From: Pseudomonadota bacterium
Lineage (GTDB): Bacteria; Desulfobacterota; Syntrophorhabdia; Syntrophorhabdales; Syntrophorhabdaceae
DNA length: 64,000 nucleotides
Direction of reading: 5' to 3'
Assembly (NCBI GenBank): GCA_026388275.1
Contig: JAPLKB010000026.1
Location: forward strand, 1 to 64,000
Shown: positions 3,695-62,232 of the stretch, piece by piece
Numbering within the stretch: the stretch's first letter is position 1
How the letters are laid out: each line of letters opens with the position of its first letter
The notes under the pieces: generated by a model
What the model was told of the DNA's origin: nothing
What the model saw: only the letters and a program-made list of their open reading frames with translations
Databases searched by the model: none
Position numbers and translations under genes: made by a program

Positions 3695-6600
3695 CTATAC
3701 AATAACCACTTTTACCACATGCCCCACATGATCATCAACAAGGAGAACAAATTTGTCATGTTGTACAACCCCGTCAACAGTCACGCCCCCCTCACCTTCG
3801 CCCACGCGTCCCTGCACGACCTTTATATGATAGATAGTTTCCCGGTACCGGTAGTGCACTGTAAAGCCCTCCCAATCATCAGGAATGCAGGGCTGGATAT
3901 ACAATTTGTCTACTTCGAGTCTCAGCCCCAGGAGTGATTCTACGATCAGGCGGTACATCCATCCGGCTGATCCCGTGTACCACGTCCATCCGCCGCGGCC
4001 CGTATGGGGCGGAACTGCATATACGTCAGCGGCAACAACATAGGGCTCCACTTTGTACACTTCAATATCCTTAGCCGACCCCCCGTGATTCACAGGATTG
4101 ATCATAGTAAGGAGTTCCCAGGCCCTCCTGCTGTCACCCAAGGCAGCAAAGGCCATAGCAGCCCAGACGGCTCCGTGTGTGTACTGCCCGCCATTTTCCC
4201 TTACCCCAGGGACGTATCCCTTGATATAGCCGGGATTTAAATCCGACTTGTCGAAGGGCGGATCGAGAAGCTGAATTAACCCGTGGTCAGGGCGTACAAG
4301 ATACTTATCCACTGCTTCCATTGCCATGCGAGACCGTGTGGCACTCCCTGCCCCGGACAAAACAGACCAGCTTTGTGCAACAGAATCTATCCGGCATTCG
4401 GGATTGATTGATGAACCCAGCGGTGTGCCGTCGTCAAAAAAAGCGCGTAAATACCACTCACCATCCCAGCCGTTTTGTTCGATATTCAGGCTAAGCGTGC
4501 CGGCTTCTTTCTCACAACGTTCTGCAAAAGGCAAATCCCCGTGCATTTTTGCAATCTCAGAGAAACTAATGAGCACTTTATAGAGGAAAAAAGCGAGCCA
4601 GACACTTTCTCCTTTGCCGGCATTGCCTACCATGTTCATACCATCGTTCCAGTCACCGGAGCCAATGAGCGGCAGTCCGTGTTCGCCGAATGTTAGGCCT
4701 CTCAAGATTGCCCGGAAACAGTGATCGTAGAGATTGGTCTTTTCTTCAGACTTACCGGGCAGATCATAATAGGAATCCTCTTCTGCGTTGACCGGACGCC
4801 CTTTAATATAGCGGATGCGTTCATCCAGCACACCGGTATCCCCGGTAGTCAGCACATAGCGGCATGTCGCCAAAGGCAGCCAGAGAAAATCATCGGAGCA
4901 TCGGGTGCGTACCCCTCGGCCTGAAGGTGGATGCCACCAGTGCTGTACATCTCCCTCTACAAACTGACGGCTTGCACTCAGAAGGAGATGTTTACGTACA
5001 AGTTGCGGTTCAGCATGGATAAGAGCCATTATGTCCTGCAACTGGTCACGAAAGCCGAAAGCCCCTCCTGACTGATAGTAACCGCTGCGCCCCCAAAGAC
5101 GGCATGAAATGGTCTGGTATAAGAGCCAGCCGTTGGCCAGGACATTAATAGAGGGATCTCTTGTTTCCACCTGAACTGCACCGAGTGTATGGTTCCAGTA
5201 CTGCCATATTCTTTCAAGGGCCTCACGGGCCGCCACCGATCCACGGGAATTATATGCCAGATTACCGGCGTCATCAGCATCCTGGCCTGCGCCCAAGGTG
5301 AAGACGATCTCGCGTTCTTCACCGTCCGCCAGCTCAAAGGCCACCTGTATTGCACCGCATGGATCAAAAGCAGCTCCTACCCTGCCGGAAAGACGTGACC
5401 GAGCCATGGCAGCAGGATTTGCAAGTGTTCCGTTGCGACCGATGAATTCTTTACGGTCACCAGTCATGGTCCGTATTACATTGTCCACGTTGAAAAAAGC
5501 CGTTCTGTTGCCGAATTCAGTGTTATATGGGTTATGCGCAAATAGAGCGCCGCTTTGAGAGTTGATCCCTGTAATTACATGCATGACTGATTTGGGTCTT
5601 AAATCTCCCAGCACCCATTCCACATATCCTGTTGCAGAAAGCCGCCGTGACCGGCCTGATTGATTGCGCACCTTCAGCACCGTAAACTTAACGGCAGCGT
5701 CAATGGCAACATACACCCACACCTCAGTACTGATTCCACGCTCAGTGTGCTCAAAGACGCTGTATCCGAACCCGTGCCTGGTCACGTAAGGCGTAGCTCC
5801 ACGGCTTGGCAGCGGCATTGGGGACCAGAAGTGTCCGCGCTCTTCGTCGCGTATATAAAAAGCTTCCCCGCTCGAATCGCTTACAGGGTCATTGTGCCAT
5901 GGGGTGAGGCGGAACTCATGCGCATTTTCGCTCCAGGTATAGGCAAGACCGTTCTCTGAAACAACAGTTCCGAAAAGCGGATTTGCCAGCACATTTACCC
6001 ACGGCGCCGGTGTTACCTGCCCACGGGCAGTTGAAATAACGTATTCCCGGCCATCAGGAGTAAAACCTCCCAGCCCGTTACCAAACATCAGATCCTGGCG
6101 AGGTTCTGCTGTTGATGACGGGGCATCGCCTTTTGCGGTTCGGATTAAAATAGAAGCCGGCAATATTCCTTCCGAAAAGCCCCGGCCCTTGAACTGGTCA
6201 GCGAGCATTCCCTTGTGGTCAGTAATGATTATTCGGGCAACCGTCTGAAAAAGGATGCGGTCTTCCTTCGATATCTGGTCGGAAGGTCTTACAAAAATAC
6301 CGCCCGGCCGATCAGTCAAGTTGGGTTCTATACCTGCAGCAATGAGCCCCATGATCTGCTCGTGAAGAATTTGCCGGTAGCCTGCGTGATCTTCGTTCCA
6401 GATTACCAGGTCCACCAACAGTCCTTTGAGACGCCAGTATGCGTGGGCCTGAACGAGTTGCCGCACCAGGTTGATATTGGCCGGGTCCTCAATCTGCAGA
6501 AGTACAATGGGAAGATCGCCGGAAATAGAGTAACCCCAGAGACCGGATTGGCCGCGGTTATTTTTCATAAGGGCGCCCGGACTGGCTCTTAGTGAAGAAT

Positions 6601-9600
6601 TAGCGTATATGACAGAGGCGGCAAGACGTCCATAAAGCTGCGCATCGGCTTCCGTGGCATTGATCTGCCGCAGCAGCACCTGGCTATGTGTCCATGCCAG
6701 ATCAAAGACACGATCTGCGAGATGCAAATCCTGATATTTCCCTATAAGGCCCATGCAGGCTTCACGGGTTTCGGCAATACCAGTGACAATAATGATAGTT
6801 GCTGATTTTTCCGGATCGAGAATTATTTGATGCCGGATCGATACAATCGGATCAAGCACTGAACCGTCGCTGTCTGAGAGCCTGGATAAACCTCTCATCG
6901 CTTGGGGATCGGCAATAGTGTTACCGCGGCCGATAAATCGCATGCGGTCGGTTTCAAAGGATACTTTATTGGTACTGGCCCCGTGCACAGCCATGAGATG
7001 GAACATCCATGGGGACTGTTCTTCAATTGAGCGCGGCCTACGCGTGCAGAGTATTGCACTTTGCTCGCGTATAATTTCGGTCATGACAAAAAGATTGCTG
7101 AAGGCCGGGTGCAGCGAATCCTGAGCGGGCGATGCAAGAACTACTTCCTCATAACTCGTTACTTCGATAGTTCTACGTGTCCGTGCCCGGTTGGTGATGG
7201 TAATCCTGCGTAATTCAATATCATCCTCAGGTGAAACTGCAATCTCAGTATGTGTGTCAAAGTCCTGATCCCGGCGGCGAAACTCTGCCCGCCCTTCCGA
7301 GAATATTGCTTCATACTGTTTAGAAGCTTTAAGCGCAGGCTGATATGTAGCTGACCAGAAAGCCCCCGTTATTGTATCACGAATATAACAGAATGCACCC
7401 CAGTTATCACAGGTACTGTCTTCGCGCCACCTTGTCACTGCAAGGTCTTTCCAGCGGCTGTAACCGCCGCCTGCATTTGTAATCATCACGTGATATCTGC
7501 CGTTCGACAACAACTGCACTTCCGGTACTGGTGTGTCGGGGCTTGTGTAGACACGTATCGGCATTTCTTCTGCACCATGTGAGGCTGCATGTGCCTCGAC
7601 AAGCTCAGTGGTGTGTGAATAAAATGCCGTTGCCTTTGGCACCCGCTCCTGAAGTAAAAGTATAATTGCCTGAAACGAGGGGTCGGACTCAAATCGCCTC
7701 TGCATAGGCCGGTTCAGCAGCAGATAGGCCAGGGAAAGGAGGCTCATGCCCTGATGATGGGCCATGAAGGACCGGACCACTGCGCTCAATTGCCCGTGGG
7801 GCAGGTGAGTCGGGGTATAGTCAATAGCTTCATAAAATCCATATCTTCCCTCAAAACCCTTAGCAGTAAGTTCCTCAAGATTAATGCAGGCATCTTCCGG
7901 CGCCACCATAAGCGCTAAAGCTGAGGCATACGGAGCAACAACCATCTCCCCGGCAAGACCGCGTTTAAGCCCCAGGCCTGGTACGCCAAATGCGCTGTAC
8001 TGGTAATTAAGATGCCCGTCAATTGTATTAAATCCGGATTCGGAAACACCCCAGGGTACGCCGCGTTTTTTTCCATACTCGATTTGTCTTGCCACAACTG
8101 CCTTATAGGTCTCGTCGAGGAGCGTTTGATCATATGTGGGCATTATAAGGAGCGGCATTAGATATTCAAACATGGACCCGCTCCAGGAAAGAAGGACCGG
8201 CTCTCCTGCGGCAGTAGTAAGAAGCCTTCCAAGGGCAAACCAGCTCTCTTGCGGTAATTGTCCCTGTGAGATGCCTACAAAGCTTGCAAGTCTTGCTTCT
8301 GAAGCCAGCAAATCATAGTAACTTACGTCACACCTATTTTCGCTGACATTATAGCCGATAGCCGACAAATGGCGATTCTTGTCATAAAGGAATTCATAAT
8401 CAATACGGGCAAGTTCACCGGATTGTGATACAAGTTCTTCGATAATCCCGATTCTCTCTCTGGCTCTTCTGCTTGCTTCATTGACAGCTTCTTGAAGATC
8501 GTCAAGTTGCTTGCGCTCCTCTTGTGTCCAGTCCTGTTGATCTATCATTGTTGACAGTATCTTTTTGTCAAGGACGGCTAATCTGCGCAGTGTGGGAATC
8601 TCGTTGAGAAACGGAAATCCGATGAGAACCTTTGGAGAAAGGGGAAGTGTTGTCCATGCTATAAGAAATTCAAAATCATCAAGAGCAGCATGGCATTGGC
8701 TGGAAAAAGCCTGTGCCCACCATGCTGACTGACTCCCTGGGTCAGCATCAAAGTCATTGACTACTTTCAGGGCAGAGACGGAAAGCTTATCAAGGCTCTC
8801 CCATACAGCATCGAGCTTATCCGGATGGACTGCGCACAATGACTTCAATTTGTCCTCGATTTGAATGAGCCGGGCCGGTGCTTTTTCACCGGCAACATCC
8901 ATAAGAATCTTCAGCGTATCAAGCAGTCCGTCAAACACCTTTGATCCCATTATTATCTCATCAGGGAGTGCGTTGAGTCCCGCCCTTAATGTTAACAGAT
9001 AAGCAGCAAGATTTCCGCTGTCAACAGTGGAAATATACATGGGCAGCAAGGGGTTTAGAGATTCTGTGTCATACCAGTTGTAGAAGTGTCCCCTGAAGCG
9101 TTCCATTACATCCATTGTGCGGAAGGCATTAGTCGTGCGATGTATGAGTTGACCTGTGGAAATATAACCGAAATCCCAGGCAGACAAATTGGCAAGAAGT
9201 GCAATCCCCATATTGGTAGGTGATGTACGATGGGCAACTTTTTCAAGGGGATGTTCCTGATAATTATCAGGTGGAAGCCAATTATCCTCCGGACCAACAA
9301 AGGTCTCAAAGTAACTCCAGGTTTTTCGGGAGATCTTTCTCAGAAAGATAATCTGGTCAGATGTGAGCTTTGCCTCGCGACGGTCAATGGGTTTGCTTAT
9401 CCACCAGGTGATTACAGGAGAGATAAACCAGAGCAACAGAACAGGTATGGCGTAAGCGATAGCAGCCGGCCTTGAAAATACGAGACCGATCAGTACAGTA
9501 ATGGAAATGACAGGAGATATCCACATAGTCAGATAAGCACCGGTCAGGTCTTTTCGGTTTGAACGATCAGAGTCGCCTGAAGGGTTCCATTCGAGAAGAC

Positions 9601-12400
9601 GCTTTTTTACAACCAACATTCGCCAGATGGTGCGAAAAACAGCATCAATGCTGAAAAATGCCTCGTAGGGTAGACAAAGGAGTGTAAATGCAGTCTGACC
9701 AAGGCTCCTGGCAGTTCCCTGCAAAACAGCAAGAATATGCTGACCGTGAAGGACATCAACGGGCTTTTGAAGCAGATCCATAAGTGCGGTAATCAAAGAA
9801 GGAATTATGATAATCCCTATTACCGACAGAGTCCAGAACCAGGGCACGGGCATTGCTGTCCAGCCCAAAATAAGCATTAACGTCAAAACCAGAGGCGAAA
9901 TGCTGCGCCTGAGGTTATCGAAAATCTTCCATCGGGAAAGAGCTGAGAGAGGATTTTTCTTAAAGCTCACATCAAGACCAGGAACTCCCGGCAGAAGCCA
10001 TCTGCAAAGCTGCCAGTCTCCGCGAATCCAGCGGTGTCTGCGACTCACGTCTGCGCTGTAGCGCGAAGGGTATTCTTCATATAGCTGCACATCACTCAAA
10101 AGACCTGCCCGCACATAACATCCTTCGATGAGATCATGGCTCAAAATCCTGTTCTCAGGAAAACGCCCCTTAAGTACCTGCTCAAAGGCATTAACGTCGT
10201 AGACGCCTTTGCCGATAAAGGAGCCTTCTCCAAAGAGATCCTGGTACACATCTGAGATAACGCGAGTATAGGGATCTATCCCTGCATCGCTTCCCCACAT
10301 GCGTGCATATTTTGACCGGTTTGTGCCGGGCAGACTCACGGCAACCCGTGGCTGGAGGATGCCGTATCCGGCATTGATACGCTGTTTTTTTTCATCATAT
10401 TGCGGACGATTCAGCGGGTGCGCCATAGCCTCCACAAGCTGTCGCGCTGCATCTCGCGGCAGTTGCGTATCTGTGTCAAGTGTAATAACATATTTCACAT
10501 TCGGCAATGATTTCAAATCTCCCACGATGAGGGAAAATTCGGTCTTTGAGCCTTCGAGGATAAGCGAATTCAACGCTGCAAGTTTTCCCCGCTTACGTTC
10601 GTAACCCATCCAGATATGTTCATCAGGATTCCACAGTCGCGGACGGTGAAAGAGGAGGAATGAGTCGGCTTTCGGGTTTATGTATTTTCTATTTAACTCC
10701 TCAATTTTCTGTTTGGCCAGTGATAACAACGATTCGTCGCTGGGTAGGCTTTCCACTTCAGCGTCACGGAAATCAGTGAGGAGGCCGAATAGAAGATTAT
10801 CATCCCTATTTGCAAGGAATCTGACCTCCAGAGCATCCATAAGATGTTCGATGTTTTCAGGGCCTGTGAGCATAGTAGGGACTATGACCAGAGCAGATGA
10901 TTCCTTTGGAATTCCTTTGGAGAAGTCCATTTTGGGCAAGGGATGGGGGGCCACAAGTCGCGTTGTAAGCCAGTTAACCAGTGCAATTGCTAACTGGCTT
11001 ACACCCAAAAGCGAAAGTGCGCCGATAAGCCACATCCAGGGACCATGTAGTCCCGAGGAAAAAGCCTTTGCAAGTAAACACCCTGTGAAGACGGCGGTAA
11101 TAACAAAGATCGTGCCAAGATAGAAGATCAAGGGAAATCGGTGAATTATCTTTCTAACTTCATCAGTTGAAGATAAGTTAACTTCTGCTAACGCTTCAAG
11201 TTGAGCAAGTCCCTTGTTGATGAGGTAGAAACCGACATGATTTTTCCGTTCATCGCTATTTATGAGTTTCTGGCCCTCTCCGGCAAGTTTGATGGCAATT
11301 TGTGCTACCTCGTTTTCGGATAATGCGCTGCTCTTAGCTATCTTCTCTACTATATGACGGTATTGATCGCGGGTGGCAAAATCCATCCTTTCATACACGC
11401 CGGCAGGGTCCTTGCAGAGGGTCTCTTCGACAACACTCATAGTTTCGACAAAATTGCGCCAATCCATGGCGCTCAGAAAACGGAGACTGCCGATGCTGTT
11501 GCTTATGGAAAGCTGATCTGCTGCTTGCTGCTGGTTCTCTGACTGTATTAACTGGTCAATCGTCAGGCTTGACTCGGAGAGCTGCTGCTCAATCCATGTA
11601 AGGGGCAATGCGAGAGTTGGACCCTGACCTTTCAGTCTGCGTGTAAGTTCTGCAACAAAGGAACTGACAATGGGCGGATTTGAGCGTGCCATATCGGCAA
11701 TAACAAGAATTAAACCTTTTGGATTGTGCTCGGCTGTCTCAGTAATCAGGTCTGCCCAATAATCGGCAAGATTCCTGTCGATTCTATCGGCAGCAATCCG
11801 CATTGCAACACGCCGGAGATTCTCAATCAGAGCCAGCCGCAGCATGATGGGAATTGCCCATAATTCGCCCAGCTTCAGCACGGTGACTGTCTGATAGGCT
11901 GCTACAAAGCCTGTGAGACTCTCCGGGTCCACCCGGCCATCGCCGTGAGAGATTGTTTCCAGTGCAATGTCATACACGCGCGGAAGACCCGATGACGGAC
12001 CATTTTTCAAGCGCGGCAACCCCTTACTGTAGCCCTTTGGCAGGTGTTTCTTTGCCGTGCGAATCTGTTCCTCGATCAGATAAAAATTGTCAAGAAGCCA
12101 TTCCCCTGCAGGCGTAATCCTCCTGTTTCCCTTTACAGCATCTGTCTGCAGTTCACGAACATTAAGAAGGACATTTTCGTTCTCACCAAGCCGCGTTAGG
12201 AGTTTTTCGGGGATATGGTCTGTGCTTAAGGTATGTGTACCGGCAAGTATCTTACCATGCTGCTCCATCTGGGAGGCGCTGAATAACTCAGATCGCAGCG
12301 GCAGCTCATCACCGGGGCGCTTTTGCGATAGACTGTTTCTACGAAAACGTGCCCACAAATGAGGCAAGTTCCCGATAATTGTTGTTCTTAGGAATGACAA
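3695..12400 (-). CDS. ndvB: Cyclic beta-1,2-glucan synthase
   Basis: At 2901 residues this is the size of the NdvB/Cgs family. It is a membrane-bound enzyme that builds beta-1,2-glucan from UDP-glucose, cuts and cyclises it, and sends it to the periplasm. A first membrane pair lies at about 430-480. The GT84 glycosyltransferase domain follows with TLDTDTQLPRD (near 635) and RHRWIRGDW (near 790). More membrane segments span about 830-1010. A glycoamylase-like domain holds GVSESGFNTIDGHLNYQYSA (near 1453). The C-terminal third is GH94 phosphorylase-like, with the catalytic-loop motif GSGDWNDGMN (near 2583). The start is a TTG with AAGGAGATCATCAAT before it. All signature motifs are intact. Such glucans serve osmoadaptation and host interaction in rhizobia and Brucella; the role here is not known. 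Confidence 0.95.
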   Translation of the reverse strand: MSFLRTTIIGNLPHLWARFRRNSLSQKRPGDELPLRSELFSASQMEQHGKILAGTHTLSTDHIPEKLLTRLGENENVLLNVRELQTDAVKGNRRITPAGEWLLDNFYLIEEQIRTAKKHLPKGYSKGLPRLKNGPSSGLPRVYDIALETISHGDGRVDPESLTGFVAAYQTVTVLKLGELWAIPIMLRLALIENLRRVAMRIAADRIDRNLADYWADLITETAEHNPKGLILVIADMARSNPPIVSSFVAELTRRLKGQGPTLALPLTWIEQQLSESSLTIDQLIQSENQQQAADQLSISNSIGSLRFLSAMDWRNFVETMSVVEETLCKDPAGVYERMDFATRDQYRHIVEKIAKSSALSENEVAQIAIKLAGEGQKLINSDERKNHVGFYLINKGLAQLEALAEVNLSSTDEVRKIIHRFPLIFYLGTIFVITAVFTGCLLAKAFSSGLHGPWMWLIGALSLLGVSQLAIALVNWLTTRLVAPHPLPKMDFSKGIPKESSALVIVPTMLTGPENIEHLMDALEVRFLANRDDNLLFGLLTDFRDAEVESLPSDESLLSLAKQKIEELNRKYINPKADSFLLFHRPRLWNPDEHIWMGYERKRGKLAALNSLILEGSKTEFSLIVGDLKSLPNVKYVITLDTDTQLPRDAARQLVEAMAHPLNRPQYDEKKQRINAGYGILQPRVAVSLPGTNRSKYARMWGSDAGIDPYTRVISDVYQDLFGEGSFIGKGVYDVNAFEQVLKGRFPENRILSHDLIEGCYVRAGLLSDVQLYEEYPSRYSADVSRRHRWIRGDWQLCRWLLPGVPGLDVSFKKNPLSALSRWKIFDNLRRSISPLVLTLMLILGWTAMPVPWFWTLSVIGIIIIPSLITALMDLLQKPVDVLHGQHILAVLQGTARSLGQTAFTLLCLPYEAFFSIDAVFRTIWRMLVVKKRLLEWNPSGDSDRSNRKDLTGAYLTMWISPVISITVLIGLVFSRPAAIAYAIPVLLLWFISPVITWWISKPIDRREAKLTSDQIIFLRKISRKTWSYFETFVGPEDNWLPPDNYQEHPLEKVAHRTSPTNMGIALLANLSAWDFGYISTGQLIHRTTNAFRTMDVMERFRGHFYNWYDTESLNPLLPMYISTVDSGNLAAYLLTLRAGLNALPDEIIMGSKVFDGLLDTLKILMDVAGEKAPARLIQIEDKLKSLCAVHPDKLDAVWESLDKLSVSALKVVNDFDADPGSQSAWWAQAFSSQCHAALDDFEFLIAWTTLPLSPKVLIGFPFLNEIPTLRRLAVLDKKILSTMIDQQDWTQEERKQLDDLQEAVNEASRRARERIGIIEELVSQSGELARIDYEFLYDKNRHLSAIGYNVSENRCDVSYYDLLASEARLASFVGISQGQLPQESWFALGRLLTTAAGEPVLLSWSGSMFEYLMPLLIMPTYDQTLLDETYKAVVARQIEYGKKRGVPWGVSESGFNTIDGHLNYQYSAFGVPGLGLKRGLAGEMVVAPYASALALMVAPEDACINLEELTAKGFEGRYGFYEAIDYTPTHLPHGQLSAVVRSFMAHHQGMSLLSLAYLLLNRPMQRRFESDPSFQAIILLLQERVPKATAFYSHTTELVEAHAASHGAEEMPIRVYTSPDTPVPEVQLLSNGRYHVMITNAGGGYSRWKDLAVTRWREDSTCDNWGAFCYIRDTITGAFWSATYQPALKASKQYEAIFSEGRAEFRRRDQDFDTHTEIAVSPEDDIELRRITITNRARTRRTIEVTSYEEVVLASPAQDSLHPAFSNLFVMTEIIREQSAILCTRRPRSIEEQSPWMFHLMAVHGASTNKVSFETDRMRFIGRGNTIADPQAMRGLSRLSDSDGSVLDPIVSIRHQIILDPEKSATIIIVTGIAETREACMGLIGKYQDLHLADRVFDLAWTHSQVLLRQINATEADAQLYGRLAASVIYANSSLRASPGALMKNNRGQSGLWGYSISGDLPIVLLQIEDPANINLVRQLVQAHAYWRLKGLLVDLVIWNEDHAGYRQILHEQIMGLIAAGIEPNLTDRPGGIFVRPSDQISKEDRILFQTVARIIITDHKGMLADQFKGRGFSEGILPASILIRTAKGDAPSSTAEPRQDLMFGNGLGGFTPDGREYVISTARGQVTPAPWVNVLANPLFGTVVSENGLAYTWSENAHEFRLTPWHNDPVSDSSGEAFYIRDEERGHFWSPMPLPSRGATPYVTRHGFGYSVFEHTERGISTEVWVYVAIDAAVKFTVLKVRNQSGRSRRLSATGYVEWVLGDLRPKSVMHVITGINSQSGALFAHNPYNTEFGNRTAFFNVDNVIRTMTGDRKEFIGRNGTLANPAAMARSRLSGRVGAAFDPCGAIQVAFELADGEEREIVFTLGAGQDADDAGNLAYNSRGSVAAREALERIWQYWNHTLGAVQVETRDPSINVLANGWLLYQTISCRLWGRSGYYQSGGAFGFRDQLQDIMALIHAEPQLVRKHLLLSASRQFVEGDVQHWWHPPSGRGVRTRCSDDFLWLPLATCRYVLTTGDTGVLDERIRYIKGRPVNAEEDSYYDLPGKSEEKTNLYDHCFRAILRGLTFGEHGLPLIGSGDWNDGMNMVGNAGKGESVWLAFFLYKVLISFSEIAKMHGDLPFAERCEKEAGTLSLNIEQNGWDGEWYLRAFFDDGTPLGSSINPECRIDSVAQSWSVLSGAGSATRSRMAMEAVDKYLVRPDHGLIQLLDPPFDKSDLNPGYIKGYVPGVRENGGQYTHGAVWAAMAFAALGDSRRAWELLTMINPVNHGGSAKDIEVYKVEPYVVAADVYAVPPHTGRGGWTWYTGSAGWMYRLIVESLLGLRLEVDKLYIQPCIPDDWEGFTVHYRYRETIYHIKVVQGRVGEGEGGVTVDGVVQHDKFVLLVDDHVGHVVKVVIV

Positions 12401-17768: not shown

Positions 17769-17873
17769 AACACCTTCCCTTCCCTTTTTTCTCTATCGTT
17801 AATTAATTTATACCACACATTGCTGACAACATCATGTCAGTTTATAACTACAATTGATTATTTTTATTGAGGA

Positions 17874-17915
17874 GGCTTGAACCACCATGTCCGCAAGGAA
17901 CACCGGATTTTGAGT
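17874..17915 (-). pseudogene. tRNA-Leu(CAA) remnant, possible attachment-site half
   Basis: These 42 bases match 20737-20778 inside the intact tRNA-Leu(CAA) gene with two mismatches and no gaps, in the same orientation. The match covers the anticodon loop through the variable arm to the T loop; the acceptor ends and 5' half are missing. It cannot encode a working tRNA. A tRNA fragment repeated directly about 2.9 kb from the intact gene is the usual footprint of site-specific integration into a tRNA, or of a partial duplication. No integrase gene lies between the two. Confidence 0.75.
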
Positions 17916-17938: not shown

Positions 17939-18081
17939 CCCTGCAGCTCGCTGCAGGGTTACTGCTTGCTCTGCAGCTCGCTGCAGGGTTACTGCTTCCT
18001 CTCGCCCCTCCGGGGGAGAGGGCGGGGTGAGGGGGATATGAGCCTCTTTCCAGTGATACCCCGCAGCAAGCTGCGGGGAGG
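17939..18081 (-). repeat. Composite palindromic repeat, copy 1
   Basis: Three perfect GC-rich hairpins are packed here. CCCTGCAG/CTGCAGGG lies at 17939-17958. CTGCAG/CTGCAG lies at 17971-17986 as part of a 27-base direct repeat with period 30. CCCCGCAG/CTGCGGGG lies at 18059-18078. Between them is a purine-rich block with CCGGGGGAGAGGGCGGGGTG. The reverse complement lines up with 62798-62909 over its length, so this is a dispersed composite element. Palindromes of this kind resemble REP/BIME sequences. No transposase is nearby. Confidence 0.75.
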
Positions 18082-18294
18082 TTCATTTGGCAATAAATAT
18101 CCCTTGTATTTTGTTCTGTCCATGATATAATCAATTCATGTATATGAATATAAACAATAAACTAGATTTATCTCATCAACCTTATATCAGCATAACAAGT
18201 TCACTTCATTGTAAATACCTAAAATTTGTTAACATGCTTAACGGACCGGATAATTCCGGTCAAGTAAAACAACGATCTTTGTGGGGCAGGCGAA
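18082..18294. other. Leader region of the hybrid kinase
   Basis: This AT-rich stretch separates the palindromic block from the kinase gene. It holds CATGATATAATCAATTCATG, which contains a TATAAT-like string, but no convincing -35 partner. There is an imperfect CCGGATAATTCCGG dyad near 18245. No gene is supported. Confidence 0.4.
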
Positions 18295-20643
18295 ATGGCA
18301 TCAATACACGATGATACCGCCTCCCGCAAGAAGGTAGAAGAAGCCCTGGTCGCCAGCCAACTTCAACTATCGGATGCAATGGACCTTGCTCACATCGTTT
18401 GCTGGGAAGTCGATATTGCAACGGGAGATTTTATCTTTAATGATCCTTTCTATACCCTTTACGCAACTACTGCTGAACGTGAAGGGGGATACCGGATGGC
18501 AAGAGAGGAGTATGGAAAAAGATTTGTGCATCAGGACGATATGTGGCGCTTTGCCGAGGCATCGGAAAAACACAGACAGATCAAAGAGAATGAGTTCCTT
18601 AACGATATGGAACACCGTATAATACGCAGAGACGGCGAAGTTCGTTATATCCTGGCCCGTATACGTGTCATTAAAGATGCCGAGGGCCGTGTAATCAGAT
18701 ACTACGGGGCAAACCAGGACATCACTGAACGCAAGCGGACAGAGGAGGCGCTGAAGGCCAGCGAGGAGAAATACCGGAAGATTTTTGAAGGAGCCACCGA
18801 GGGCATCTGCCAGACGACCCCCGAGGGCAGGTGTCTTAGCATGAATCCGGCTTTTGCAAAAATGTTCGGCTTTGCATCACCGGAAGAGATGATCGATTCC
18901 GTCAGCAATATGGGCCAGCATCTCTATGTGAACCCGGAAGACCGTGAAAAGATGGTGCGCATGCTCATTGAACACGACAAGGTCAAAGGGTATGAGGTGG
19001 AGGTGTATCGCAAGGACAGAAGCCGGTTCTGGATATCCATCAACATCCATACGGTTCGTGATACTGCAGGAAATATTCTGTACTTCGAAGGCACGAACAC
19101 GGACATTACCACGCGCAAAAAAGCCGAAGAAGCAATCGCCAATGAGAGAGAAAAACTAAAAACTCTTTCGGACAATGCCCCTTTCGGGATGGTTCTCATT
19201 AATAAGGATGGTCGTTTTACGTATATTAACACCAAGTTCACAGACCTGTTCGGGTTTGATCCGTCTGATATCCCCGATGGCAGAACATGGTTTAGAATGG
19301 CCTATCCAGATATTGAATACAGACATACAGTCATCTCAACCTGGGTAGAAGATTTAGGGGATGCCAGACCAGGTGAACGGAAACCGAGGGTTTTTACCAT
19401 TACATGTAAGGATGGAACTCAAAAGATAGCAAACCTTATCACTTCGATACTTGTTTCTGGTGATTATCTGATGATATGCGAAGACATCACCGAAAAAAGA
19501 AACCTCGAATCCCAGCTTCGCCAGGCCCAGAAAATGGAATCCCTTGGTACTCTCGCAGGAGGTATAGCCCGTGATTTCAATAATATTCTCACGGCCCTTA
19601 TGGGATATGCCGCCCTCATACAGATAAAGATGGAAAAGTCGAACCCCTTAAAAACATACGCGGATCAGATAATCTCCGCTTCCAAGAAGGCAGCCGATCT
19701 TACACATAGTCTTTTGGCTTTCAGCAGACAACAACCCACTAATCTTGTTCCTCTTGATATAAACAGCACAATAAAAACTACAAAGAAACTTCTCAAGAGG
19801 CTGCTTACCGAGGATATTGAGCTGCACACATCACTCACAAATGATGATACGACCGTAATGGCAGATAAGTCACAAATAGATCAGATCCTTTTCAACCTTG
19901 TTACCAATGCAAGGGATGCCATGCCGAAAGGAGGAACGATAGCCATAGAGACATTTATTGCTGATATAGACAACAGGTTCATCAGGTTTCACGGGATCAG
20001 AGAGCCGGGAAGGTATGTGCTGATAAACGTCTCCGACACAGGAATAGGAATGGATGAAGTCACACGTGAGAAGATCTTCGATCCCTTCTTTACCACAAAG
20101 GAGGTCGGGAAAGGAACCGGGCTTGGCCTTGCTACCGTCTATGGCATTGTTAAACAGCATAACGGATACATCACTTTAGAGAGCACACCAAATATGGGTA
20201 CTACCTTTCATATCTATATCCCTGTAGTAATGAAGAAGGCCGATCCGGAAGAAGGTAAGACAACCGCCATCACGATGGGAGATGAAACAGTCCTTATCGT
20301 CGAAGACAATAAAGAGGCAAGATGTTTTATACGGGAAGCACTTCAGTACTCCGGTTATAAGACCATAGAAGCGGTAGACGGTGAAGATGGGATATATAAA
20401 TTTAAGCAGAACCTTAACGTAGACCTCGTCATCCTTGACCTGGTAATGCCGAAAAAGAACGGACGTGAAGCCTACGAGGAGATACACAAAATAAACCCTC
20501 ATATCAAAGTACTCTTTACCAGCGGCCATACCAAAGAAGTTGTCCTCGACAAAGGAATTGAGGACAAAGAATTTGACTTCATTGCCAAGCCGCTATCACT
20601 CAACGAGTTTCTTCAGAAGGTCCGCGAGGTCCTTGACAGGTAG
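18295..20643 (+). CDS. Hybrid PAS histidine kinase lacking the phosphoacceptor His
   Basis: The 782-residue cytosolic protein has three PAS domains (about 20-145, 150-275 and 285-400), a HisKA dimerisation region, an HATPase domain and a C-terminal receiver (about 663-782). The HATPase motifs [17 protein letters not shown] and [13 protein letters not shown] are intact, and the receiver keeps its Asp (D715 in VILDLVMP). The usual LAGGIAHDFNN is read here as [11 protein letters not shown]: codon 426 (19570-19572) is CGT, Arg, instead of His. Autophosphorylation at the normal site should therefore be impossible, unless the base is a sequencing error. The start is an ATG with weak GGGGCAGG upstream. 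It lies alone between the tRNA-Leu remnant and the intact tRNA-Leu. Confidence 0.92.
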
Positions 20644-20721
20644 CAATCATTTTTACATGAATGCATTAGCGTGATACATTGGAAAATGTTTAACGATTCT
20701 TTCAGAGACCCTTGATTTTAT

Positions 20722-20809
20722 TGGTGCCGAAGGGGGGGCTTGAACCCCCATGTCCGCAAGGGACACCGGATTTTGAGTCCGGCGCGTCTGCCAATTCCAC
20801 CACTCCGGC
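20722..20809 (-). tRNA. tRNA-Leu(CAA)
   Basis: On the minus strand the sequence starts GCCGGAGTGGTGGAATTGGC and ends TCGGCACCA with the CCA encoded. The anticodon stem CCGGA/TCCGG encloses the loop CTCAAAA, so the anticodon is CAA, reading UUG. There is a long variable arm, as in class II tRNAs, and a T arm with GGTTCAAGCC. A promoter precedes it at 20838-20866. A 42-bp copy of its 3' half lies at 17874-17915. Confidence 0.95.
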
Positions 20810-20837
20810 TTGTTATTCACTGCTTTAATGAAATTAG

Positions 20838-20866
20838 AGCATATCAAAACCATTATTATATGTCAA
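20838..20866 (-). promoter_or_regulatory. Promoter of tRNA-Leu
   Basis: Reading the minus strand, TTGACA (20861-20866) is followed after exactly 17 bases by TATGCT (20838-20843). The tRNA starts about 29 bases downstream of the -10 box. This fits a housekeeping sigma-70 promoter for a stable RNA. Confidence 0.65.
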
Positions 20867-20880
20867 CAGGTTGCCCTATC

Positions 20881-21774
20881 CTAAAAGCAAGCCTTAATAA
20901 ATTTTATCAGATAGTCTATCTTCAAAATACGGTCGGGTTTAAGAGAAATGGCTTTCCTGTAATGCCCTCTGGCAATCTTCTTTTCATTGTTTAGATAAAG
21001 TTTTCTAAAAAGTTCCAAATGTCTGTTAGCAGTGAAATCCTTTCTGAGATGCTCGATTGCTGCACCATAAAAGGGGTCATCAAAGATAGCCTGTGCAAGG
21101 CTAACCCCCTGTCTTTTCAGTTCTTCGATATTATGCCGGAGGCTGTCGCCGTGCCATAGCGTAACAGCAGTCGGTTCTTTTAAATAATAAACAGGTGCAC
21201 TAAAAAATATTTTTAAAAAATAAACAACATCCTCCCCGTTTGATATACCTGACGGAAATATGAATTGCTTTGCAATATTACTGCGAATCAACGCCGCACA
21301 AGTTCCGAATGGAAATCTTCCCATCAGCAGGTCTTCATAAAATTTATCCGACATAATATCTGTTTTAACCCAGGGTTTGCATAACATGCTATTGCCCTTT
21401 TGTGAATATGTCTCGGTGATTACAGCACCGGCAGATGGTTTTTTCAAAAACGCATTGAGCCTTATTTTAATTGCATTTTCCGTAAGGTAGTCGTCTGCAT
21501 CGAGAAAAGCAATAAAATCGCCGGCAGCCTGTTCCAGTCCCTTGTTTCTGGCAGAAGACACTCCTGAATTTTCCTGCCGGATATAAACAATCCTGCTGCC
21601 ATAACTCTCTGCAATATTTTTGGTGTTATCCGTTGAGCCGTCATCGATAACGAGAACTTCAACGTTTTTATAGGATTGATCAAGACATGATTGTATGGCC
21701 TTAGGTAAAAAATCAGCATAATTGTAAGTTGGTATGATAATAGAAACCAAAGGGAATTCAGTTTTTGCCGTCAT
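20881..21774 (-). CDS. Family 2 glycosyltransferase
   Basis: The product of about 297 residues has the GT-A fold of family 2 inverting glycosyltransferases. It opens with PLVSIIIPTYNYADFLPKAI, followed by VLVIDDGSTDNT for the nucleotide-sugar site, NSGVSSARNKGLEQAAGD, and the DxD metal site in FIAFLDADDYL (near residue 90). The rest is less conserved and sets the acceptor. An ATG at 21774 is taken as start; a TTG nine bases earlier is also in frame and neither has a strong ribosome binding site. It stands alone, ending just upstream of the tRNA-Leu promoter and away from other polysaccharide genes. Confidence 0.87.
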   Translation of the reverse strand: MTAKTEFPLVSIIIPTYNYADFLPKAIQSCLDQSYKNVEVLVIDDGSTDNTKNIAESYGSRIVYIRQENSGVSSARNKGLEQAAGDFIAFLDADDYLTENAIKIRLNAFLKKPSAGAVITETYSQKGNSMLCKPWVKTDIMSDKFYEDLLMGRFPFGTCAALIRSNIAKQFIFPSGISNGEDVVYFLKIFFSAPVYYLKEPTAVTLWHGDSLRHNIEELKRQGVSLAQAIFDDPFYGAAIEHLRKDFTANRHLELFRKLYLNNEKKIARGHYRKAISLKPDRILKIDYLIKFIKACF

Positions 21775-21969
21775 AATATCCAATTTGTCTTATACAATGT
21801 CCATTTATATTTGTCTATAATAATTGAGGTATCAAAAATTTTGTCTTGACAATCAATGCTTGATTGCACATATTATCACAAAGCTATAATGGGTAATTTT
21901 TTCTCTGGTTAACAATAAGAACCAGTAATTCATACAATATATAATATTTATTGGGTAAATTGAATTTTA

Positions 21970-24027
21970 ATGGAACCTGAAACGTTAAATAAACAGAGCT
22001 TTCTGTCTCCCGATAGCGGAACTTACAGCGATATAAGCATAAATAACAATAAATGCCGCAGGTGCTTTTACTGTATACAGATATGTCCTGCAAAAGCCAT
22101 CAGAGTAGAAAAAAACAGCATTAAAATTATTCCTGAACGGTGCATTCTGTGCGGCAGCTGCGTAACAGCATGTCCCCGGCAGGCATTGGATTATAAAAGC
22201 GGTCTTGGCCATGTGGTCAAACTGCTAACAGACAACGAAAAGACAATAGCCTGCCTTGATCCGGCTTTTCCGGCGGACCTTAATATGTGCACTCCCGGAC
22301 AACTTGCTACAACTTTGAAAAAGATAGGTTTTACAGAGGTCTGGGAGGGCGCCTTTGGTGCTGAATTGATATCCCGGGCTTACAAAAAACTGCTTTCCGA
22401 AGAAACCGGCAAACCTGTAATCTCCTCCTTTTGTCCTGTAATTGTCTTTTACATACAAAAATACCTTCCACAACTGATTCCTAACATAGCGCCTATCGTG
22501 TCTCCAATGATTGCCATAGGCAGGGTTGCCCGTGCAATAAAAGGGACAGACTGGAAAATTATCTATATAACGCCCTGCATGGCTCAGGTAAGGGAGATGA
22601 ATGCCCCGGAGGTAGCCGGAGTTATTGACGAAGTTATTACCTTCCGCGATATAAGACGATTGATTAGCAGTAAGGGTATTGATTGTGAGCAGCAAGAGGA
22701 GACCGGGGCTGATGGTCCAAAACCCTATCTCGGAAGGACAATTTCTGTAACACCGGGACTTTACAGGACCATTGACGTAAACTATGATACTCTGATGGAC
22801 GATATAAGCGTTATCTATGGACCAAAACGTGTCATAGGTGCATTAAATCAGTTGGCGACAGATTATATTGAGGCAAAATTTCTCGATTTTGTTTACTGTT
22901 TCGGCTGTGTGAATGGACCTTTTGTCGATAGCGATTTGTCTGTACTCGGAAGGCGGCAGGTAGTTGTACGGTACGCAAAAGCCAAAATAAGCGGCCAGGA
23001 TATTGGGAATATTAATGCCGAACTTGATTTATATAAAAATGTTGATTTGAGCAGGCGATTCGACAATATGGAACAAAAATTACCGGTGCCGACAGAAGAA
23101 CAGATAATGACAATACTTAAAAAGATCGGCAAAACCCCGCCTAACCATAATCTTGATTGCAGAGCGTGCGGACATGAAAGCTGCCGCGATAAGGCAATTG
23201 CAGTAGCTCAGGGAATTGCTGAGACAGAATATTGCCTGCACTACCTTCTTGAACAGAGTAAAAAAATATATCAGCAATTAAAAAAATCTCATAAGCAGTT
23301 ACAGCAGTCGCATCAGGAACTGGAACAGGCGCATGCACAACTCATAAAAACGGAAAAATTTGCTGCCCTGGGGCAGCTTGCAGCAGGCGTTGCCCATGAA
23401 ATCAACAATCCGCTTGGAACAATTACTATTTATTCCCATCTTTTGTTGAAAAGTCTGGAAGAAGAAGATCCAAGAAAAGATGATGTAGCATTGATCATAA
23501 GCGAAGCAAACCGTGCTAAAGAGATTGTTCAGGGACTTTTGAGTTTTGCAAGGGAAACAAAGCTCCGGGAGTCCGAGATGAACGTGAATGACCTGCTTGA
23601 AGATGTCCTCGCCCTTATCGGCAATCAGTCTTTGTTTTATAACATCAAGATTGAAAAATCCTTTTATCAGGACATTCCTACAATCACTGCCGACGAGACT
23701 AAACTTAAACAGGTTTTTTTAAATATTATTTTAAATGCCGCTCAAGCTATGGAGGGGAACGGAAAACTTACAATCAGCACAACTACGGATAAAAGGCAGA
23801 TCAAAATCAAGATTCAGGATACAGGCCCAGGTATTCCCCCTGAAAATATGGACAAACTCTTTTCCCCGTTTTTTACTACAAAAGAAAAGGGGACGGGGCT
23901 TGGACTTGCCATCTCTTACGGGATAATTGAGCGGCATAAAGGGAAGATTGATGTTTATTCAGAGCTTGGAAGAGGAAGCACCTTTACCATAATCCTCCCG
24001 ATAACAAAATGCGAAGATATAGTATAA
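21970..24027 (+). CDS. [FeFe]-hydrogenase-like sensor histidine kinase
   Basis: The 685-residue fusion begins with a 2[4Fe-4S] ferredoxin (CRRCFYCIQICP from C29, then CILCGSCVTACP). An [FeFe]-hydrogenase large-subunit-like domain follows (about 85-350). H-cluster loops are recognisable but altered: SSFCPV near 155, YITPCMAQ near 200, and FVYCFGCVNGP near 309, where the usual C-x3-C is C-x2-C. Next come a [4Fe-4S] motif CRACGHESC (about 396), a coiled coil, HisKA with H474 in LAAGVAHEINNP, and an HATPase (DTGPGIPP, GTGLGLAISYG). No membrane segment is seen. It probably senses H2 or the ferredoxin redox state and signals to the receiver gene at 24099. The start is the ATG at 21970, with a weak binding site. 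The altered loops make enzymatic H2 turnover unlikely. Confidence 0.9.
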   Translation: MEPETLNKQSFLSPDSGTYSDISINNNKCRRCFYCIQICPAKAIRVEKNSIKIIPERCILCGSCVTACPRQALDYKSGLGHVVKLLTDNEKTIACLDPAFPADLNMCTPGQLATTLKKIGFTEVWEGAFGAELISRAYKKLLSEETGKPVISSFCPVIVFYIQKYLPQLIPNIAPIVSPMIAIGRVARAIKGTDWKIIYITPCMAQVREMNAPEVAGVIDEVITFRDIRRLISSKGIDCEQQEETGADGPKPYLGRTISVTPGLYRTIDVNYDTLMDDISVIYGPKRVIGALNQLATDYIEAKFLDFVYCFGCVNGPFVDSDLSVLGRRQVVVRYAKAKISGQDIGNINAELDLYKNVDLSRRFDNMEQKLPVPTEEQIMTILKKIGKTPPNHNLDCRACGHESCRDKAIAVAQGIAETEYCLHYLLEQSKKIYQQLKKSHKQLQQSHQELEQAHAQLIKTEKFAALGQLAAGVAHEINNPLGTITIYSHLLLKSLEEEDPRKDDVALIISEANRAKEIVQGLLSFARETKLRESEMNVNDLLEDVLALIGNQSLFYNIKIEKSFYQDIPTITADETKLKQVFLNIILNAAQAMEGNGKLTISTTTDKRQIKIKIQDTGPGIPPENMDKLFSPFFTTKEKGTGLGLAISYGIIERHKGKIDVYSELGRGSTFTIILPITKCEDIV

Positions 24028-24043
24028 TGATATAATAAAGGAA

Positions 24044-24071
24044 GAAACGGATTTATATAAATCGCCGTTTC
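24044..24071 (+). other. Intergenic hairpin between kinase and receiver genes
   Basis: GAAACGG pairs with CCGTTTC, and inside them ATTTA pairs with TAAAT around a two-base loop, with a two-base CG bulge. There is no T-run, so it is not a typical terminator. It could protect or process the operon mRNA. Confidence 0.45.
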
Positions 24072-24098
24072 AAAAATAAAAAACAGGGAGAAAAAACT

Positions 24099-24506
24099 AT
24101 GGCTAAAAAACCAAAAATATTGCTTGTTGACAACGATGTGGATTTTATCGACCTGAATAAAGCTGTTCTCGAAAACAGCGGATTCGAGGTAGCAGTGGCA
24201 TTTGCAGGCCGGGAAGTAATGGACAAGGTAAGATTTGAGCAGCCGGAATTAATAGTACTTGATCTGATGATGGAGAAACATGACACCGGTTTTGGTGTTG
24301 CAAAAGCACTGAAGGCTGATCCTGTATATAGAGATATCCCCATATTAATGCTCACAGCAGTTCTTGGCGAAACCGGTATGGATTTTAACCAGGATCTTGA
24401 CGGCTATTGGATGAAGACTGATGCCTATGCAAGTAAACCGCTTACACCTGAAGAATTGATAAATAAGATAAATGAGTTACTTGCAAGGTCAAAAGCAGAC
24501 AAATAA
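24099..24506 (+). CDS. Single-domain response regulator
   Basis: The 135-residue protein is a lone CheY-like receiver: KILLVDNDVDF near the N-terminus with the acidic site, the phosphoacceptor Asp in LIVLDLMM (about residue 53), Thr/Ala in MLTA and Lys in YASKPLTPEE. No output domain is present, so it either passes phosphate on or acts by protein contact. The region after MLTAVLGETG is slightly longer than in CheY. The start is an ATG with CAGGGAG upstream. It lies 71 bases after the hydrogenase-like kinase and 102 bases before the receiver-PAS-kinase gene, so the three very likely form one signalling chain. Confidence 0.9.
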   Translation: MAKKPKILLVDNDVDFIDLNKAVLENSGFEVAVAFAGREVMDKVRFEQPELIVLDLMMEKHDTGFGVAKALKADPVYRDIPILMLTAVLGETGMDFNQDLDGYWMKTDAYASKPLTPEELINKINELLARSKADK

Positions 24507-59640: not shown

Positions 59641-62232
59641 CTACTCTTCGATGACCTTTCTGATTTTTTGTGACAGTTCTTGTATACTGAAAGGTTTTTG
59701 AATAAAGGCTTTGCAGCCATTATTAATAATGCCGGCTGCCTGACCGTTAATACTGTAGCCTGTTGAAAGAATTGCCTTAACATCGGGATTAACCATTTTT
59801 AGAAATTCAAAGGTTTCTGCACCACCCATATCAGGCATAATCATATCCAGAATAACAAGATCAATAGCATCAGTTCTTTTTTTATATGTTTCAATGGCTT
59901 CCCTGCCGCTTCTTGCAATTATGACATTGTATCCGAGCAGCTCAAGAAAATTTTTATTAACATCAATAATTGCTTCTTCGTCATCAACGAGAAGTATTGT
60001 TTCTGTCCCTTTCATGATATTTGAAACAAATAATTCTTCTTTTTGTACTGCCTTTTCTGAAGCAGGGAGGTATATACTGAATGTGCTTCCATGTCCTTTT
60101 TCGCTATAGACGTTAATAAATCCACCATGATTCTTAACAATACCGTACACTGAAGCAAGTCCGAGACCGGTTCCGCGCCCCATCTCTTTCGTTGTAAAGA
60201 ATGGCTCAAAAATCCTTTCTTTTGTTTTATTGTCCATGCCGATGCCCGTATCGGTTACAGATATCCTAAGGTATTCGCCAAACTTTATATAAGAAGCCTT
60301 TGCATGGTTTTCATCGAGAAAATAGTTTTGTGTTTCTATATACAATTCACCCCCTCCGGGCATGGCCTGCCAGGCATTTACATAAAGATTTACAAGGACC
60401 TGCTCAATCTGTCCCTGGTCGGCATCCACTATATAGGGCTTCTCCTCATATTTCGTGTGAATCGTAATCTCTTTTTTTGTGCGGCCGAACATGGCTGATG
60501 TTTTTGCAATGATTTCATTTAGATTGGAAGGTTTAACCTCATATCTTCCGCCCCTTGCAAAACCAAGAAGTTGTCTTGTCAGATCGGCGCCACTTTTTAC
60601 GAGCTCTTCAATGCTCTTAAGTTTTTCATAGTTAGGGTGCGATTCATTAAGATTAAAAAGCGCGAGGGATGCGTACCCCTGTATACCCATCAGAATATTA
60701 TTGATATCATGGGCAACACCACCTGCTAAAGTGCCTATAGCCTCCATCTTCTGAGACTGAAGCAGTTGTGATTCAAGTCTTTTGCGTTCAGAAATATCCT
60801 GCAAAGTACCTTCATATAGATCAATATTTCCTCTTTCATCCAAAACAGAACGGGCATTAATAGAAACCCAGATCACATCTTTGTTTTTACAGTACAACTG
60901 TGCCTCAAAATCCTTGACGATACCACGTTCAATCAACAATTGTTTAAATTCTACGCAACGTAAGTAATCTACAAACAGTTTACCGAAGTCTTTGACTTCA
61001 TTAATTAATTCATGCAGCGAATCGGCTTTATATAAACGCACAAGGGCTGGGTTGGCGTTCCATATATGCCCGTCAGGGGTTACCTGGAGAATGCCTTCTA
61101 TGGTATTTTCAAAAATATTACGGTATTTTTCTTCGCTTTCCCTGAGGAAATTTTCAATCCTTTTTTTATCAGTAACATCCTCGTACATAACGACAATCTG
61201 TTTTTCTGCCAGATTTGTTCCAATTCTCGCAACACTCAACTTGCATATAATGTCTCTCCCGTCTTTGTGACGACAGTAAACCTCAATGCTGTGGACTTTC
61301 TGTTTTTCCAGAATATTGTATATACCGCCTATCTGTTCATAGTCTGTATCTGTCCTGTAGAGTATCCTCGTGCGTTTACCAATTAATTCTTCCGGCTTCC
61401 AGCCGAAAACCTCTTCCACTGAATTGTTGGCAAATATGATGATGCGTTCTTTCAAACCTATAACAGCATGTGGGATTGCGTCCAAAATAGATGATTCAAG
61501 TTCTTCCAGCTTATTGAGTGTTTCCTCCTGCTGCCTGCGCTCGGATATTTCCTGTTGAAGTTTTTCATTGGTTTGTTTGAGCTCTGTTGTTCGTTTTGTT
61601 ACCAGTTCTTCAAGATTGTTCCGGTATTGGTTTAATTTGTCTTCTGTTTTTTTATGCTCCTTTATTTCTATGTTTAATTCCATATTTGCCTTCAGTAACT
61701 CGTAAGTACGTTCTTCCAGTTCTTTATATGCATCTTTTAATGCTATTTCAGTACTTTTTAATTCGGTAAAATTGGTAATTGAAAATACATATCCCTTGGA
61801 AATATCATTGTCATCAAGCGGACGTCCATTTGCCACACAGGGGACGCGATAGCCATCTCTGTGCAAAAACTCATATTCAAATGTCAAAAGTCTGTCTGTA
61901 AGGGATTCATCGTAAATTATACTGTCAATATTTGCCTGCTCTTCATCGCCATAAAATATAATATCAGTTTTTCGGCCTATCAAATCTTCCTGTTCCCAGC
62001 CCAGAATATCTGTAAAAGCATTATTGCACCAGATAATCATATGATTCTTAATAAGACATATGCCATGGGTTGTACTGTCCAGAACAGCCATGAGGAAATC
62101 CTGGGATTGCCTAAGCTTCTCATTGGCAGCCGAAAGTTCTTCAGCCTTTTCCTTGGCATCTTCAAGGTCGAAGATATATTCCTGAAGCGTGCGGCGTTGC
62201 AGCTTATCTTTTTTTACATCATCCACTACCAT
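59641..62232 (-). CDS. Hybrid multi-PAS histidine kinase with receiver
   Basis: The 863-residue cytosolic kinase begins with a coiled coil (about 10-45), then PAS domains at about 45-160, 245-365 and 370-490 with a second long coiled coil (165-240) between the first two. HisKA has the intact phosphoacceptor in LAGGVAHDINNILMGIQGYA (H about 507). The HATPase has NAWQAMPGGG, DTGIGMD and GRGTGLGLASVYG. The receiver (about 745-863) has its Asp in LVILDMIMPD near 796. It resembles the hybrid kinase at 18295, which has Arg in place of this His. The ATG has AAGGAG nine bases upstream. A truncated receiver gene lies just upstream on the same strand. Confidence 0.93.
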   Translation of the reverse strand: MVVDDVKKDKLQRRTLQEYIFDLEDAKEKAEELSAANEKLRQSQDFLMAVLDSTTHGICLIKNHMIIWCNNAFTDILGWEQEDLIGRKTDIIFYGDEEQANIDSIIYDESLTDRLLTFEYEFLHRDGYRVPCVANGRPLDDNDISKGYVFSITNFTELKSTEIALKDAYKELEERTYELLKANMELNIEIKEHKKTEDKLNQYRNNLEELVTKRTTELKQTNEKLQQEISERRQQEETLNKLEELESSILDAIPHAVIGLKERIIIFANNSVEEVFGWKPEELIGKRTRILYRTDTDYEQIGGIYNILEKQKVHSIEVYCRHKDGRDIICKLSVARIGTNLAEKQIVVMYEDVTDKKRIENFLRESEEKYRNIFENTIEGILQVTPDGHIWNANPALVRLYKADSLHELINEVKDFGKLFVDYLRCVEFKQLLIERGIVKDFEAQLYCKNKDVIWVSINARSVLDERGNIDLYEGTLQDISERKRLESQLLQSQKMEAIGTLAGGVAHDINNILMGIQGYASLALFNLNESHPNYEKLKSIEELVKSGADLTRQLLGFARGGRYEVKPSNLNEIIAKTSAMFGRTKKEITIHTKYEEKPYIVDADQGQIEQVLVNLYVNAWQAMPGGGELYIETQNYFLDENHAKASYIKFGEYLRISVTDTGIGMDNKTKERIFEPFFTTKEMGRGTGLGLASVYGIVKNHGGFINVYSEKGHGSTFSIYLPASEKAVQKEELFVSNIMKGTETILLVDDEEAIIDVNKNFLELLGYNVIIARSGREAIETYKKRTDAIDLVILDMIMPDMGGAETFEFLKMVNPDVKAILSTGYSINGQAAGIINNGCKAFIQKPFSIQELSQKIRKVIEE

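Follow-up and report, generated by a model that had tools for sequence, protein, structure and literature searches.

In HisKA histidine kinases the H-box His is phosphorylated, after which the phosphate is passed to a receiver Asp. Within this class, CckA-type hybrid kinases carry an HDFNN H-box, a CA domain and a C-terminal receiver. DivL of Caulobacter has Tyr at the acceptor position in a recognisable kinase fold and, according to an excerpt of its description, binds ATP weakly (PMC4211667). CCNA_03265, also of Caulobacter, is a hybrid kinase that lacks the conserved His and keeps its receiver Asp, and its authors noted a possible displaced His (excerpt of PMC11481889).

Here, we analyse a hybrid kinase gene in a contiguous stretch of 64,000 nucleotides, hereafter the window. 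Its product resembles the CckA type in H-box context, CA domain and C-terminal receiver, and among solved structures its closest match is 5idj_A, over aa 408-645, followed by 5idm_A, named CckA. It differs from that type in having Arg for the phosphoacceptor His (R426) and soluble PAS domains. Like DivL, the R426 protein has lost the acceptor His within a recognisable kinase fold, but it carries Arg rather than Tyr, retains all ATP-site residues, has a receiver with an intact Asp and lacks a conserved orthologue set. CCNA_03265 is likened to it by description only. The literature searched yielded no description of a HisKA kinase with a natural His-to-Arg change, which does not prove that none exists. 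We believe that the gene carries a recent and isolated CAT-to-CGT (His426Arg) change in an accessory, CckA-type soluble hybrid kinase, that the protein would be dead in canonical autophosphorylation and that it might exert a dominant-negative or trans-donor effect, a reading to which we assign a probability of roughly 0.6.

The R426 kinase and the state of its remaining sequence

The original prediction, which placed Arg at the phosphoacceptor position of a hybrid kinase, agrees with our codon reading: the CGT at 19570-19572 is codon 426, in frame with the ATG at 18295, and R426 aligns to the His of 'aggvahdfnn' in 5idj_A and to a column occupied by His in each of the 65 His-row relatives of the alignment, rows that were chosen for having His in the motif. 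One transition, CAT to CGT, is enough to account for the codon, as had been proposed, and the paralogue named for comparison (59641-62232) does read GVAHDINN (G000:C26:60697-60720). The Pfam domain order of HisKA, HATPase_c and receiver (Table 1) is that of CckA-like hybrid kinases, and their ATP-binding boxes and receiver Asp and Lys are intact in the alignment; the element of these kinases that is missing is the phosphoacceptor His. The kinase at 18295-20643 has no adjacent response-regulator gene of its own, and no ChpT- or CtrA-like partner was identified for it.

Table 1. Features of the kinase gene and its surroundings (window coordinates)
Feature	Coordinates	Strand	Basis
Left copy of 45-bp repeat, degenerate tRNA-Leu fragment, 93% identical, upstream of kinase	17871..17915		
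Dispersed intergenic repeat, upstream of kinase	17939..18088		
Hybrid histidine kinase, 782 aa, PAS domains-HisKA-HATPase-receiver	18295..20643	+	Open frame without stops, Pfam
HisKA/DHp domain, aa 417-480; D427, N429 and N430 of H-box kept	19543..19734	+	Pfam, alignment
Codon 426, CGT (Arg), phosphoacceptor His position of H-box	19570..19572	+	Codon reading, alignment, 5idj_A match
HATPase_c (CA) domain, aa 524-644, ATP-binding residues intact	19864..20226	+	Pfam, alignment
Receiver domain, aa 666-777; D671, D715, S743 and K765 intact	20290..20625	+	Pfam, alignment
tRNA-Leu (CAA) gene, convergent, 78 bp past kinase stop	20722..20809	-	
Right copy of 45-bp direct repeat, inside tRNA-Leu	20734..20778		

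The claim that the ATP-binding motifs and the receiver Asp are intact is borne out, since N534, N538, D581, G583, G585, F598 and the glycines of G605-G611 are kept along with the receiver residues listed in Table 1. The alignment behind these comparisons started from 84 motif rows, from which 10 shorter than 350 aa were dropped, leaving 65 His rows, eight other Arg kinases and the target. Across 65 near-invariant columns the R426 protein keeps 63, its departures being H426R and A699G; of the 65 His rows, 40 agree at every column and three outliers depart at 10 or 11, while the eight other Arg kinases depart at 4 to 18, a comparison that is unfair to them as they come from more distant lineages. 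In a tree restricted to the target and the 65 His rows, the terminal branch of the R426 protein (0.19) equals the tree median (0.19) and is close to that of the nearest own paralogue, G000:C38 (0.18), to which the protein is 79% identical in the DHp, 73% in the CA and 75% in the receiver domain. Its 20 clade-unique residues put it at rank 18 of 27 rows, the other rows having 4 to 39. Pairwise dN and dS are 0.172 and 1.08 against the paralogue and 0.14 and 0.92 against a kinase of genome G016, similar to the values between these two (0.141 and 0.76), although the high dS makes this comparison rough. Relaxation to just the average rate throughout the branch would have produced about 9 changes among the 49 other near-invariant kinase columns, and none is seen, which suggests that the His was lost late on the branch or that the remaining kinase features are still needed.

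Decay, the second possibility raised by the original prediction, therefore leaves no sign beyond residue 426: there are no stops, no frameshifts and no excess change at conserved columns, and the open frame, the 63 of 65 columns kept, the ordinary branch, the unremarkable number of clade-unique residues and a dN far below dS give no support to decay of the whole gene. An N-terminal truncation was likewise considered and rejected; relatives whose frames are longer begin to match only at the ORF start, and no significant remnant lies upstream.

The tRNA-Leu bracket and the sister species

The kinase gene is flanked by a tRNA-Leu gene on one side and by a 45-bp partial copy of that tRNA on the other, a setting that the original prediction did not mention. 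The dispersed repeat at 17939-18088, within the bracket, measures about 117-165 bp across its copies, which are numerous in the genome and include some in the sister species. In this species (G001), the sole other one of the genus in our comparison, a syntenic stretch with a DNA similarity of 85.6% over window positions 20719-24476 comprises the tRNA-Leu, a glycosyltransferase and a hydrogenase-domain kinase, and ends at the tRNA. The R426 kinase is absent from the corresponding place, and the G001 genome holds no match above 49% over a long alignment or above 60% over the core. A tRNA, a partial repeat on the opposite side and a gene absent in a relative are together the marks of a tRNA-flanked islet. 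No integrase gene was found inside the bracket: apart from the kinase, no ORF between 17915 and 20722 reaches 120 aa. Most naturally, the kinase would be read as the cargo or remnant of an element that was once integrated at tRNA-Leu, and the gene is probably accessory, within a variable region flanked by tRNA-Leu.

Three further genes of the window deserve mention. A ParB-like gene at its start (222-1169) has a 68% DNA match beside the tRNA-Leu of the sister species (L107, 13164-13733), which suggests that pieces of the region were reshuffled between the two species. The hydrogenase-domain kinase (21970-24027) is a histidine kinase fused to iron-only hydrogenase-like and ferredoxin domains and is 90% identical in the sister species, and positions 3695-12400 encode a protein of 2,901 aa that combines glycoside hydrolase 94 and glucoamylase-like domains.

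Replacements of the acceptor His among relatives and across phyla

When the motif was searched with any codon allowed at the acceptor position, the genome gave 21 matches, 20 with His and one with Arg. Among motif rows fetched by protein similarity the target alone has a residue other than His, the top match from each of 29 further genomes has His as well, and Arg at position 426 was found in none of the relatives fetched from the 39 genomes of the family that were searched. The original prediction had proposed orthologues as a check, and with His in every fetched relative the reading as a conserved pseudokinase fails, though the identities of these relatives reach no more than 64% in long alignments and 73% in the core, so that true orthologues may be missing from the comparison. 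Set against the hallmarks of pseudo-histidine kinases, the acceptor His is indeed replaced in the R426 protein; conservation of the replacement among orthologues is not seen, orthology itself being weak. The kinase is probably not a conserved new kind.

Across 395 genomes of the phylum, the His motif was matched 2,696 times in 320 genomes, whereas CGN-Arg was matched three times in three genomes, one of them that of the R426 kinase. Codons that do not begin with C gave 14 further matches, of which three are kinases, all with Asn, seven are TPR-like, two are other non-kinase frames (L102, L103) and two (G073, G070) were left unread; the census of replacements is partial in that CAR (Gln), CTN (Leu) and CCN (Pro) codons were left out. 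The three Asn kinases (L099, L100, L101) read GIANDFNN or GVANDFNN, and in L101 the ATP-lid glycine region is altered too. An apparent conserved Arg group, made up of four AGA-Arg matches in one genus and two Ala matches in its sister genus, was rejected, as all of its members read as TPR-repeat-like proteins in which the letters of the motif recur by chance.

A scan of a collection of 84,980 species, from which the genome of the R426 kinase may itself be absent, returned 19 stretches with CGN in the DFNN form of the motif. By reading, 15 of them encode kinases of the R426 type, with record titles that include Deltaproteobacteria, Desulfatiglandales, Desulfobacula, Desulfobacteraceae, Acidobacteria, Nitrospirae, Planctomycetota, Chlorobiaceae, Chloroflexi, Gamma- and Alphaproteobacteria, Lentisphaerae and others; the remaining four were set aside as not being such kinases (L034, which is TPR-like, L036, L045 and L050), and L039 is a degenerate match. 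In an all-against-all comparison of the 15 Arg kinases and the R426 protein, no pair of the 16 is more than 57% identical, which argues for independent cases, and the Arg losses are scattered rather than grouped by orthology. One of them, in Desulfogranum mediterraneum DSM 13871 (L051/L105, genome G129), has Arg at the same motif site and a largely intact receiver, but it has a different N-terminal sensor region and is not an orthologue of the R426 protein; its relatives have His in all 19 other fetched loci, once in the form AHEINN. As a cultured strain with an Arg hybrid kinase, DSM 13871 is a convenient laboratory test case.

Origin and possible consequences of the probable His426Arg change

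Several other explanations have to be weighed against a recent loss. That the organism itself has CAT, and that CGT is a consensus or assembly error, is somewhat unlikely in our view. The genome is a draft of 71 contigs, an error would look identical to the single transition that accounts for the codon, and kinase cores are repetitive in this genome, contigs C25 and C45 ending close to one; however, four paralogues (C3, C7, C23, C34) share the 12-base context GCCCATGATTTC exactly and are called CAT there, which argues against a systematic miscall though not against a random one, the gene shows no frameshift or other anomaly, and the nearest own paralogue, 73% identical in the protein core, is too different for a chimeric collapse at one base. 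We consider it extremely unlikely that another His, for example H471, takes the phosphate. H471 lies in the second half of HisKA and is unique to the R426 protein among 27 clade rows, but the position facing residue 426 is, on the hairpin geometry that we assume for HisKA, nearer 478-480 and about two turns from H471, which gives this residue low weight. Such a displaced acceptor resembles the one that its authors raised for CCNA_03265 (excerpt of PMC11481889).

A different possibility is that the Arg form is maintained by selection, either as an ATP-loaded partner or competitor that forms heterodimers with paralogous kinases or as a DivL-like docking sensor for a phosphorylated receiver. Its ATP-binding, DHp and receiver signatures are all kept, the close paralogue G000:C38 could in principle form mixed dimers with it, and precedents are described, within the excerpts consulted, in the pseudo-histidine kinase DivL (PMC4211667), in RetS-GacS heterodimers (PMC12189002) and in the His-less kinase domain of CCNA_03265, for which a heterodimer was suggested (PMC11481889). 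Full retention of the ATP site is equally expected of a selected pseudokinase that needs ATP binding; yet DivL binds ATP weakly (excerpt of PMC4211667), so that an intact ATP site is not a DivL hallmark. Arg is shared by no relative, which leaves a selected role unsupported, the Arg cases elsewhere are isolated, including that of G129 with His at all 19 other loci, and a linked partner gene is absent, which together make such a role unlikely. The pseudokinase interpretation of the original prediction consequently stands as a literal chemical consequence of the replacement and not as a selected function. We regard as very unlikely a more elaborate version, in which an ATP-competent, His-less kinase acts only in mixed dimers, its CA domain phosphorylating the paralogue His in trans and its own receiver being loaded from the paralogue, so that two sensors form an AND gate; here, Arg could fix the DHp helix in one state.

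We therefore return to a recent, isolated change, which most likely came without an evolved function. Its age is bounded only by the absence of relaxation, the closest relative being 73% identical over the core. Arg offers no acceptor for the HisKA reaction, so canonical autophosphorylation should be lost: without the acceptor imidazole, the canonical site would not be phosphorylated and the receiver would not be loaded from the protein's own histidine. As DHp, CA and receiver are otherwise intact, the protein is still expected to fold, form dimers and bind ATP. Within a mixed dimer it might then donate from its ATP side to the partner's His; it might also act as a non-productive, dominant-negative partner or as a sink for receiver phosphate. 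Donation from the ATP site to a partner subunit is documented for acceptor-His mutants of EnvZ and BarA, whereas ArcB and EvgS autophosphorylate in cis (excerpt of PMC4734776). A role as a phosphatase only seems doubtful by analogy, since the H260A replacement in HK853 diminishes phosphatase activity (excerpt of PMC5727384). Because the gene is probably accessory and the genome encodes many similar kinases, its loss of activity would be tolerable and the gene may be dispensable.

Finally, our census sets a measured baseline against which losses of the catalytic His can be judged in one kinase class, with 2,696 His matches against 3 with CGN-Arg, plus 3 Asn kinases, in 395 genomes of one phylum, and this baseline helps to tell a pseudokinase signal from sporadic loss when the His is missing. 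If it is true that the R426 protein acts in mixed dimers, it would represent a natural case of enforced kinase heterodimerisation.
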